Of a DNA stretch of 39,238 nucleotides, positions 12,319 through 36,643 are shown one piece after another (position 1 is the stretch's first letter; every line of letters begins with the position of its first letter). The translations under genes and the position numbers were made by a program. The DNA is taken from assembly GCA_949292385.1 (NCBI GenBank), contig CASEZC010000013.1:1-39238 (forward strand), given 5' to 3'. The notes beneath the pieces are model-generated. The model searched no databases and had not been told where the DNA came from. It worked only from the letters and a program-made list of their open reading frames with translations. This DNA is from an uncultured Pseudomonadota bacterium (GTDB lineage: Bacteria > Pseudomonadota > Alphaproteobacteria > Rs-D84).

Positions 12319-12323
12319 ATTTT

Positions 12324-12641
12324 ACAGAAACGCGATAAGCCGGATTCTGTCCTGCCCTGGCCCAGTCTGTTAAACTTAACCAAGGTAGTGAGCATAATTA
12401 ATCTGCATAATGTGTTGCCACAAAATGTCAAGCCTTCTACCCGTCCCCAACTTGGGACCTGTATAGGGGACCTATTTGAAGTTGCTGCGCATAGAGATTG
12501 CCCGTTTCACTCGAATTTAATCGTTTCGTCACTGTTGCTCTAATCGTCGGATTGCTCCGCTCGGTAATTAGCCGATATGCTGTCCCACGCAGTCCGGACT
12601 TTCCTCCGTCAAATAATGACGGCTATGCTCTGCATTTCTGT
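12324..12641 (-). ncRNA. rnpB: RNase P RNA (bacterial type A, compact)
   Basis: Catalytic RNA that removes tRNA 5' leaders. On the minus strand the universal 5' motif GAGGAAAGTCCGGACT (about 12593-12608) and the conserved 3' motif ACAGAATCCGGCTTAT are present. The ends were set by a perfect ten-base P1 helix: ACAGAAATGC at the 5' end (12632-12641) pairs with GCGTTTCTGT at the 3' end (12324-12333). GGGACGGGTAGAAGG and the GACGGAGGAAAG core are also typical. At about 318 nt it is shorter than the usual 350-400 nt, so peripheral helices are probably reduced. It converges on tolA and has its own promoter. Confidence 0.96.
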
Positions 12642-34681: not shown

Positions 34682-34950
34682 TGAACGAAAAAAGACAAGA
34701 TTTTTATAAATACAAAGAAGGTAAAACGGAATCCGAATTAACGTTTGAAAACATGATTGCGTTAATATCTTCGTTGGAATCAAAAGCAAGATTATTGGGT
34801 GCACTTGTTGTTGCGCGTCAAATAGAACAGTTAAAAAAGTCTGCTTTAAAGAATAACTCAAATAAAAAATTAATGAAATCTTTGCAAAGTAAATATGATT
34901 TGTATAAAAAGCAAATTATGGATATAGAAAAAGACAGAAAAACGAAATAA
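34681..34950 (+). CDS. Small coiled-coil hypothetical protein, 89 aa
   Basis: Unrecognised. Its ATG overlaps the LysM-protein stop (TAATG), so it is co-translated with it, which supports a shared role in the envelope or division. The protein is highly charged (Lys/Glu), has no signal peptide or membrane helix and is predicted by eye to be helical from residue 18 on (ELTFENMIALISSLESKARLLGALVVARQIEQL, in part), with heptad-like leucines and isoleucines. A strong terminator follows. Confidence 0.72.
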   Translation: MNEKRQDFYKYKEGKTESELTFENMIALISSLESKARLLGALVVARQIEQLKKSALKNNSNKKLMKSLQSKYDLYKKQIMDIEKDRKTK

Positions 34951-34955
34951 TAAAA

Positions 34956-34985
34956 ATAAGGGGCTATGAAAGCCCTTTGTTTTTT
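34956..34985 (+). terminator. Intrinsic terminator of the LysM operon
   Basis: GGGCT-ATGAA-AGCCC (34961-34975), extended by A/T pairs on both sides and followed by TTTG and T6. Confidence 0.8.
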
Positions 34986-34993
34986 ACCTTGTC

Positions 34994-35012
34994 TGGTGCG
35001 GGCGAAGGGAAT
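34994..35012 (-). repeat. Second copy of the tRNA-Gly 3' end (19-base direct repeat)
   Basis: The 19 bases TGGTGCGGGCGAAGGGAAT occur here and at 35185-35203 inside tRNA-Gly, same orientation, starts 191 bases apart. On the minus strand they read as the 3' half of the T-stem, the acceptor 3' strand, the discriminator A and CCA. In this copy the upstream bases form a new hairpin, GGGAAT-TATAC-ATTCCC, instead of a T-arm. Either an attachment-site-like duplication or a tRNA-derived remnant. Confidence 0.85.
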
Positions 35013-35146
35013 GTATAATTCCCTGCCGAAATCAATCCAATCGCTTTCTGCTTTTGGTGATTTCGACGGGTCCCTTTCACTTCGCGCAAAAGCGCTGCGT
35101 TTCGAACCCTCTTTGTGCCGGGTTCTTCCCCTGTCGCCGGCAGACG
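35013..35146. other. GC-richer structured island between the two tRNA 3' ends
   Basis: No credible gene. The stretch is visibly more GC-rich than its surroundings and full of dyads: CGAAATCA with TGATTTCG (around 35027-35066), GCGC-AAAA-GCGC (around 35084-35095), and GAACCC with GGGTTC (around 35104-35125). Open frames cross it and the tRNA on both strands but have no ribosome site and read through tRNA sequence, so I treat them as artefacts. Could be a small structured RNA, a non-autonomous repeat or the scar of an excised element. Confidence 0.5.
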
Positions 35147-35174
35147 CAAAAAATAAAAACCAACACAAGGTTGG
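35147..35174 (-). terminator. Intrinsic terminator of tRNA-Gly
   Basis: Minus strand CCAAC-CTTGT-GTTGG (35160-35174), then TTTTTATTTTTT, about ten bases after the tRNA CCA end. Confidence 0.75.
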
Positions 35175-35184
35175 CTTCATTTTT

Positions 35185-35258
35185 TGGTGCGGGCGAAGGG
35201 AATCGAACCCTCGTCTTCAGCTTGGGAAGCTGACGTGCTACCATTATACCACGCCCGC
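35185..35258 (-). tRNA. tRNA-Gly(CCC), CCA encoded
   Basis: The minus strand folds into a full cloverleaf of 74 nt: acceptor GCGGGCG/CGCCCGC, D-arm with AATGGT, anticodon arm TCAGC-TTCCCAA-GCTGA giving anticodon CCC (reads GGG), T-arm GAGGG-TTCGATT-CCCTT, discriminator A and a genomically encoded CCA. The D-stem has one weak pair. It has its own promoter and terminator. Confidence 0.96.
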
Positions 35259-35271
35259 GTTTGTTGGCTGG

Positions 35272-35300
35272 ATTTTATAACTTTCATGATGAAATGTCCA
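35272..35300 (-). promoter_or_regulatory. Promoter of tRNA-Gly
   Basis: Minus strand TGGACA (35295-35300), 17-base spacer, TAAAAT (35272-35277), 13 bases before the tRNA 5' end. Confidence 0.6.
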
Positions 35301-35389
35301 GTAGAAAACGTGGACGTTTTTTCTTGTTGCTTTTATCTTTTTTCCGTCCTACCGTTAATAATGCCTATCTAAAATAAGGGAGTTTTATT

Positions 35390-36643
35390 ATGGCAAATGA
35401 AAATATGAATCCGCTTTTGGCAGCTCAGAAACGCGTAAAGGTAGCATGCGATAAGTTGGGGCTGAGTGCGGATGTTTATGAAATTCTTAAAAATCCTCAG
35501 CGTATGTTAGAGGTTTCAATTCCTGTAAAAATGGATGACGGTTCTATAAAAGTTTTTACGGGTTATCGTGCACAACACAATACTGCTGTTGGACCTTCAA
35601 AAGGTGGTGTAAGATTCCATCCAGCTGTTACAAAAGATGAAGTTGCTGCGTTGTCTATTTGGATGACATTTAAGTGCGCAGTTACTGGAATTCCATACGG
35701 TGGCGGTAAAGGTGGAATTATCGTAGATCCTAAAACACTTTCTCAGGCCGAATTGGAACGTTTGTGCCGTGGTTATGTTGACGCGATTTATCCTATATTG
35801 GGTGAAAAGAAAGACGTGCCTGCCCCTGACGTAAATACTAATGGGCAAATTATGGCTTGGATGGAAGACGAATATATTAAGCTGTCTGGTGAAGAATCTT
35901 TTGGTACTTTTACGGGGAAACCAGTAGAATTATCCGGTTCTTTGGGCAGAACAAAGGCTACGGGACTTGGTATTTCTATCATAATATCAGAAGCTTTGAA
36001 GAAACAAGGCAAGGATATGAAAGGTGCACGCATAGCAATCCAAGGCTTTGGTAATGTTGGCAGCTTTACTGCAAAATGCAGCAGTGAAATGGGCGCTAAG
36101 ATTATAGCTATTGCGGAATGGAATACGACTTTGTTTAATGAAAACGGTTTGGATATAGAAGCTTTGTTAAAATTCAAAGCAGAAAACAAAGGTAGTATTA
36201 AAGGTTTCCCAGATGCAAAAGAAATTACCGCAGAAGAATTCTGGGGCTTGGATGTAGATGTTTTATCTCCATGCGCTATGGAAAATACTATTAATAAAGA
36301 AACAGCTTCACTTATAAAAACAAAGTTGGTTGTTGAAGGAGCAAATGGTCCGACTACTCTTGAAGGAGAAGAAATACTGTTATCAAACGGTGTTACGGTA
36401 GTGCCTGATATTTTAGCAAATGCAGGTGGCGTAACAGTTTCTTACTTTGAGTGGGTACAAAACCGTTATGGTTATTATTGGGACGAAGTAGAAGTGGAAC
36501 AGAAAGAAGAAGTCGCAATGAAGAAAGCTTTTGATGCGATTTACAAGATTAAAGAAGAATATAATGTTCCAATGCGTGAAGCTGCTTATATGCACTCGAT
36601 AAAGAAAGTAACAACTGCGATGAAGTTGCGTGGCTGGTGCTAA
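35390..36643 (+). CDS. gdhA: Glutamate dehydrogenase, NAD-type hexameric
   Basis: Interconverts glutamate with 2-oxoglutarate and ammonium. The 417-aa length and sequence follow the GudB/RocG-like class: GYRAQHNTAVGPSKGGVRFHP with Lys71, WMTFKCAVTGIPYGGGKGG with catalytic-site Lys95 and Lys107, DVPAPDVNTNGQIMAWM, the Rossmann motif IQGFGNVGS and DILANAGGVTVSYFEWVQN. It most likely serves glutamate catabolism, though NADP use cannot be excluded by eye. AAGGGAG precedes the ATG. A weak promoter (TTGCTT-17-TACCGT, 35327-35355) is possible. It stands alone. Confidence 0.95.
   Translation: MANENMNPLLAAQKRVKVACDKLGLSADVYEILKNPQRMLEVSIPVKMDDGSIKVFTGYRAQHNTAVGPSKGGVRFHPAVTKDEVAALSIWMTFKCAVTGIPYGGGKGGIIVDPKTLSQAELERLCRGYVDAIYPILGEKKDVPAPDVNTNGQIMAWMEDEYIKLSGEESFGTFTGKPVELSGSLGRTKATGLGISIIISEALKKQGKDMKGARIAIQGFGNVGSFTAKCSSEMGAKIIAIAEWNTTLFNENGLDIEALLKFKAENKGSIKGFPDAKEITAEEFWGLDVDVLSPCAMENTINKETASLIKTKLVVEGANGPTTLEGEEILLSNGVTVVPDILANAGGVTVSYFEWVQNRYGYYWDEVEVEQKEEVAMKKAFDAIYKIKEEYNVPMREAAYMHSIKKVTTAMKLRGWC

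Follow-up and report, generated by a model that had tools for sequence, protein, structure and literature searches.

The structured island behind tRNA-Gly(CCC) in a reduced-genome gut alphaproteobacterium and its RtT-like plan

The tRNA-Gly(CCC) locus and the parts of the island

The window, that is, the whole stretch of 39,238 bases that was analysed, carries on its minus strand a tRNA-Gly(CCC) gene at 35185-35258 (ARAGORN; Rfam, 67.6 bits) with an encoded CCA. The gene is preceded by a sigma-70-like promoter on the same strand (TGGACA-17-TAAAAT, 35272-35300), which is the only one given by the promoter search within 34940-35400, no promoter-like site being present inside the island that follows the gene. 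The minus strand of the window also encodes an RNase P RNA of class A at 12320-12641 (Rfam, 183.9 bits).

The initial annotation had reported a 19-base repeat of the tRNA-Gly 3' end, and the repeat (TGGTGCGGGCGAAGGGAAT) is exact and the sole 19-mer present twice in the window by exact-repeat count; its copies at 34994-35012 and 35185-35203 are separated by 191 nt from start to start, with 172 nt intervening. In tRNA-Gly the 19-mer runs from A58 of the T-loop to A76 and thus comprises the end of the T-loop, the 3' half of the T-stem, the 3' strand of the acceptor, the discriminator, and CCA. The same annotation had described a GC-richer, structured island, in agreement with a G+C content of 54.6% at 34994-35145 against 38.0% in the window, a value equalled or exceeded in only 20 of 39,086 stretches of the same size. 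The minus strand of the island, which is the tRNA-sense strand, has a fold that beats those of shuffled sequences (z -4.5, 0/200), and the excess on the plus strand is weaker (z -2.4).

Between the two 19-mer copies, the first part in the tRNA sense is an intrinsic terminator; an inverted and degenerate copy of the tRNA 3' end comes next, then a forward copy of the 5' half of the T-stem, and finally two hairpins with a junction that leads into the tail. All these parts lie on the minus strand and form a single unit, with no tandem repetition. The terminator T1 (35146-35180, terminator search) is located immediately 3' of tRNA-Gly and is composed of a stem at 35156-35178 followed by a T-rich stretch. 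Initially it had been overlooked, together with the inverted copy at 35120-35142, which was recognized by comparison with the tRNA and reads TGCCGGCGACAGGGGAAGAACCC against TGCGGGCGAAGGGAATCGAACCC in the reverse complement of the tRNA-Gly 3' end; its score with its own tRNA exceeds each of the 17 scores obtained with other isotypes (p 0.005 by shuffling). The forward copy (GAGGGTTCG, 35103-35111), which comprises the 5' half of the T-stem and the beginning of the T-loop, occupies the same place in nearly all elements of the classes A and R and of RtT RNA described below, and it is proposed that it may pair with GAACCC of the inverted copy.

The first of the two hairpins is the core hairpin GCGC-TTTT-GCGC at 35084-35095, where relatives have a variable hairpin. 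It is followed by the class A core (35021-35080), known from 114 same-class elements and composed of a GTGAAAGGGACCC box, a long hairpin, and GGG. A junction hairpin of the predicted fold, AGGGAAT-TATAC-ATTCCCT (35006-35024), links the core to the tail, which is the exact copy of nt 58-76 of tRNA-Gly (ATTCCCTTCGCCCGCACCA, 34994-35012), and a terminator-like hairpin, T2, found by the terminator search, lies 3' of the tail at 34961-34975.

On the opposite strand a spurious open reading frame of 104 aa spans 34966-35280; tRNA-Gly read in antisense gives its C-terminal part (GRRESNPRLQLGKLTCYHYTTPA). The spurious translations beside tRNAs that the initial annotation mentioned thus have a simple origin here, and "proteins" of this kind next to other tRNAs would be accounted for in the same way. 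Nothing similar to the island was present in the phage and plasmid records searched; with permissive thresholds, the Rfam matches at the island were no better than chance, and at related loci tRNA alone exceeded the gathering score. A blastn search of the window's own genome (G000) returned no further copy of its class A core.

Related islands, their tails and their pairing

The relatives of the island were collected from one genus, Candidatus Enterousia, whose genomes are mostly below 1 Mb; in particular, the genomes G018 and G071 match contigs of Candidatus Enterousia excrementavium and E. merdequi at identical positions. This genus belongs to the order Rs-D84 of the Alphaproteobacteria and includes gut bacteria with reduced genomes (PMC12306168).

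The order gdh - tRNA-Gly - LysM is conserved in the sister genomes, while the sequence 3' of the tRNA varies. At this orthologous Gly-CCC site a class A core is present in the window and in G006, G011, G017, G031, G001, and G030, a class R core in G010, a 114-bp class B element in G008, G018, G024, and G028, and a class C element, made of tandem 69-bp units, in G004. The site is empty in other genomes such as G022 (locus L019), in which gdh and LysM are both present; the comparison of sister genomes suggested at the outset has yielded occupied as well as empty sites. Such a patchy distribution is unlike that of a conserved regulator. The 114-bp unit of class B (L016, L026, L028, L031) has a TAATAACG hairpin and a tRNA tail with no clear inverted copy, and the 69-bp unit of class C (L012) likewise has a tRNA tail without a clear inverted copy. 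A separate repeat of about 115 bp, GAGTGYCTCGCCGTAG...CGGCGAAGGCGGAC, occurs without a tRNA tail at L032, L005, and L004, and is in tandem 3' of tRNA-Gly in L032.

Class A, collected through its two flanking boxes only, comprises 114 distinct elements; 94 of these have a same-strand tRNA upstream, mostly at 74-152 nt, and 22 anticodons are represented. Class R comprises 90 distinct elements, 74 of which lie behind a tRNA, and is found in 55 of the 59 genomes of the genus with 1-19 copies each. Jointly, the two classes are associated with more than 20 anticodons, most elements being located directly 3' of a same-strand tRNA. Among 155 islands, sampled by core class, those at Pro, Ser, Arg, Gly, Tyr, Gln, Lys, and His tRNAs are common, and none is at Ala, Thr, Phe, Ile, or Trp tRNAs. 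A scan of 385 Alphaproteobacteria outside the genus with the class R model R1 gave no match under strict filters, which leaves absence there unproven.

The 3' end of a typical element is a copy of nt 57/58-76 of the adjoining tRNA itself. The own tail is matched at 16 or more of 20 positions in 73% of the 94 tRNA-linked class A elements against 0.27% of 7,418 other-isotype controls, and in 73% of the 74 tRNA-linked class R elements against 1.9% for other-isotype tails. In a set of 119 Enterousia tRNA loci, enriched for Gly-CCC, 27 have a copy of their own tail (at least 17/20) within 350 nt, compared with 0 of 1,190 other-isotype trials. Where a tRNA has species-specific changes, the tails carry the own base at 109 sites and the common base at 4, the own-base count being biased upward by the filter of at least 13/16; at L011, for instance, CCCTTTGCC is common to the tRNA and its tail. 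Of 29 islands examined for the inverted copy, only about 13 have one that is clearly cognate.

Several islands can occur in one genome. A survey of G010 (about 0.8 Mb, 42 tRNA genes) revealed islands at about 13 to 15 tRNAs, some in tandem with the terminator repeated too, and tandem units were found at Arg-UCU of G010 and in G081 and G025. In G000 the tail search located more islands 3' of Arg-UCU, Pro-GGG, and Gln-UUG. About 30 of the 92 contig ends of G000 are in or at tRNA genes; they were considered as a sign of arrays and rejected as such, because tRNAs common to co-occurring related species break assembly graphs alike, and the breaks are probably of this kind.

The pairing of class R was followed from a seed alignment (A1), in which 10 of 14 pairs show compensatory change, through the model R1 to a re-collected alignment (A3) of 82 distinct sequences. 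In A3, 278 cells have both sides changed and 12 of the 14 pairs have changes on both sides; the covariation score is 0.67 against 0.16 in shuffled and at most 0.08 in slid controls. In addition, 96.8% of the cells are paired; this figure carries less weight than the compensatory pairs and the slid control, since the model served to fit the alignment. For class A, MAFFT aligned the full set of cores (A2) with too many gaps for pairs to be counted, and pairing was counted from the flanking boxes instead. The hairpin between the boxes, which is itself unconstrained, exchanges Watson-Crick pairs (pair 2: CG 60, TA 25, AT 9; pair 5: CG 43, AT 24, GC 11, TA 5) and, in about 30%, has tandem G.A at pairs 3-4. 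The idea of a duplication scar unique to this locus and free of covariation is contradicted by these data, the island being part of a large genus family whose helices covary.

Pair 1 of the class A hairpin has 39 G-U and 1 A-C, in agreement with the expectation for RNA pairing. The core helices of class R are nearly without G-U (2 G-U, 12 A-C, 731 Watson-Crick), a scarcity that differs from ordinary RNA constraint, and in the comparison helices the ratio of G-U to A-C is 56 to 11 for the terminators of class R loci and 105 to 10 for tRNA stems. The sequences in these counts are not mutually independent, and since the two classes are opposite in sign, the balance of G-U and A-C was not used to choose between RNA and DNA.

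Proposed working and rival explanations

The island is, with high probability, one copy of a real family of structured, tRNA-linked repeats that have an RtT-like plan and cores of their own. The two alternatives offered by the initial annotation, a tRNA-derived interspersed repeat and a structured RNA mimicking a tRNA end, were both largely right, since the element is multi-copy and tRNA-linked, and its covarying structure, presumably expressed, ends in a tRNA tail. The balance tilts slightly towards islands acting as processed RNA, and the window's own island is best regarded, by a modest preference, as an RtT-like, tRNA-linked structured RNA whose expression is presumed.

The working unit would be about 150 nt long (190 with the terminator) and would contain, behind the tRNA, the degenerate inverted 3'-end copy, the forward T-stem 5' copy, an exchangeable structured core, and the tail of nt 57/58-76 with CCA. 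Because a terminator separates tRNA and island, transcription of the latter would have to be read-through, with a part of the transcripts from the tRNA promoter passing T1. The inverted copy could then pair with the T-stem and the inner acceptor part of the tail, as well as with the forward T-stem copy, and the island RNA would close as one multi-branched fold with a tRNA-like CCA at its 3' end. The enzymes of tRNA 3' maturation may release it as a discrete RNA, comparable to RtT from the E. coli tyrT transcript. The identity of tail and tRNA would be kept through recombination or slippage between the nearby direct repeats, the same events giving rise to tandem arrays and precise losses, and cores might be swapped between islands via the T-arm sequences common to all tRNAs. 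A wider and rather doubtful extension would be a genome-wide system of structured cassettes with exchangeable cores behind many tRNAs, each with a custom copy of the host tRNA 3' end, in which a host mechanism couples tail and tRNA; its plan, shared by gut Alphaproteobacteria and gammaproteobacterial RtT, would belong to a minimal mobile element or to a tRNA-surveillance RNA.

A minimal mobile DNA element is an unlikely alternative with several observations in its favour. Recombination would take place at the folded single strand or at the T-arm repeat, and the element would insert at the T-loop and restore the tRNA with a recombinase provided in trans, as an attC-like or non-autonomous integrative element. 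The copy boundary lies in the T-loop for all classes, the syntenic gdh - tRNA-Gly - LysM locus is occupied or empty and can hold any of four island types, genomes have 0-19 copies and tandem arrays, and class R helices are depleted in G-U. On the other side, the class A hairpin tolerates G-U, and cross-isotype insertion would generate a chimeric tRNA unless the core alone moves. The supply of enzymes also argues against it: Phage_integrase proteins (PF00589) number only two in each of the class R-rich genomes G010, G015, and G028 (11, 16, and 14 copies), as in G000 and G021, compared with six in G063, which has zero class R copies, and the two tyrosine recombinases of island-rich genomes are probably XerC and XerD. 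The Y1 transposase (PF01797) was found in only 1 of 14 genus genomes searched and not in G000. A dedicated mobiliser is thus unlikely, and a host recombinase may take its place. The integrative element considered in the initial annotation fits the direct-repeat layout and the occupied and empty sister sites, and is weakened by the presence of only two recombinases, the absence of the Y1 transposase from 13 of 14 genomes, and the lack of cargo. Its more specific form, an attL/attR scar of a larger element whose interior was lost, agrees with the direct repetition of the tRNA 3' end and is extremely improbable, since scars are not expected to share cores, to covary, or to recur behind 20 or more anticodons; for the family it is ruled out by core conservation.

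A selfish tandem repeat without RNA function, generated close to the 3' ends of tRNAs by gene conversion and local duplication and with palindromic cores kept perfect by palindrome correction at the DNA level, would fit the near identity of tandem units, terminator included, the tails that follow the species' own tRNA allele (109 sites against 4, with the filter bias given above), and the class R helix mismatches that are not replaced by G-U. It is nevertheless quite improbable, because duplication would not give core sequences common to 20 or more anticodons and dozens of species, a constant spacing and orientation, tandem G.A and boxes that are conserved, and a plan that recurs in gammaproteobacterial RtT.

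The islands show the RtT plan with other cores in a reduced-genome alphaproteobacterial genus, where a single core class can reach 19 copies within a genome below 1 Mb. Until now RtT has mostly been regarded as a peculiarity of the tyrosine tRNA operon of E. coli, and more than 20 anticodons with islands that typically copy their own tRNA make its nature and origin open to a comparative test. New covariance models are also gained for intergenic DNA that annotation may fill with antisense-tRNA open reading frames.

Comparison with known systems

Outside RtT, no account of such islands was found in the literature searched, in which most subscription journals were not covered. The islands resemble integrative elements with a T-loop crossover in the direct repeat from T-loop to 3' end, the intact tRNA, and the empty sites in relatives, and differ from those at tRNA genes in being only about 170-190 bp long, with no integrase or cargo and with a structured core common to different isotypes. 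REP/BIME elements with RAYT (Y1) are likewise multi-copy intergenic palindromes; the islands, in contrast, are strictly tRNA-linked, have cognate tails, and occur in a genus where the Y1 transposase is absent from 13 of 14 genomes.

The closest likeness is to RtT RNA (RF00391), which, according to PMC4986893, is released from the tyrT operon and from further tRNA operons of E. coli and affects the stringent response. The tandem units of E. coli tyrT/tyrV are about 178 nt long and include 19 nt from the end of tRNA-Tyr, and the Rfam model covers them from the inverted copy through the CCA of the tail. RF00391 has matches in 46 of 398 Pseudomonadota genomes, belonging to 24 genera; most of the 20 copies fetched lie 10-45 nt behind Tyr, Ser-UGA/GGA/GCU, Lys, Pro, or Gln tRNAs, and most have cognate tails (18-19/20) and GGATGAGAACC, or a sequence near it, in the inverted copy.

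RtT and the Enterousia islands share the position behind a same-strand tRNA, the inverted 3'-end copy with a change of TC to GA (GGATGAGAACC, common to RtT and many of the islands), the forward GGTTCGA copy, a hairpin core, the tail of tRNA nt 58-76 with CCA, and, in some of the islands, tandem units. RtT differs in its core, and its covariance model matches neither the Enterousia cores in general nor the window island or the class R loci, with 0 matches in G000. The Enterousia islands, for their part, have a terminator between tRNA and island, which RtT lacks, and occur at far more isotypes, with core classes that are exchangeable. Conversely, the class R model R1 aligns to RtT weakly (E 2-5) and mostly at the right place, and common descent of the cores may thus be possible.
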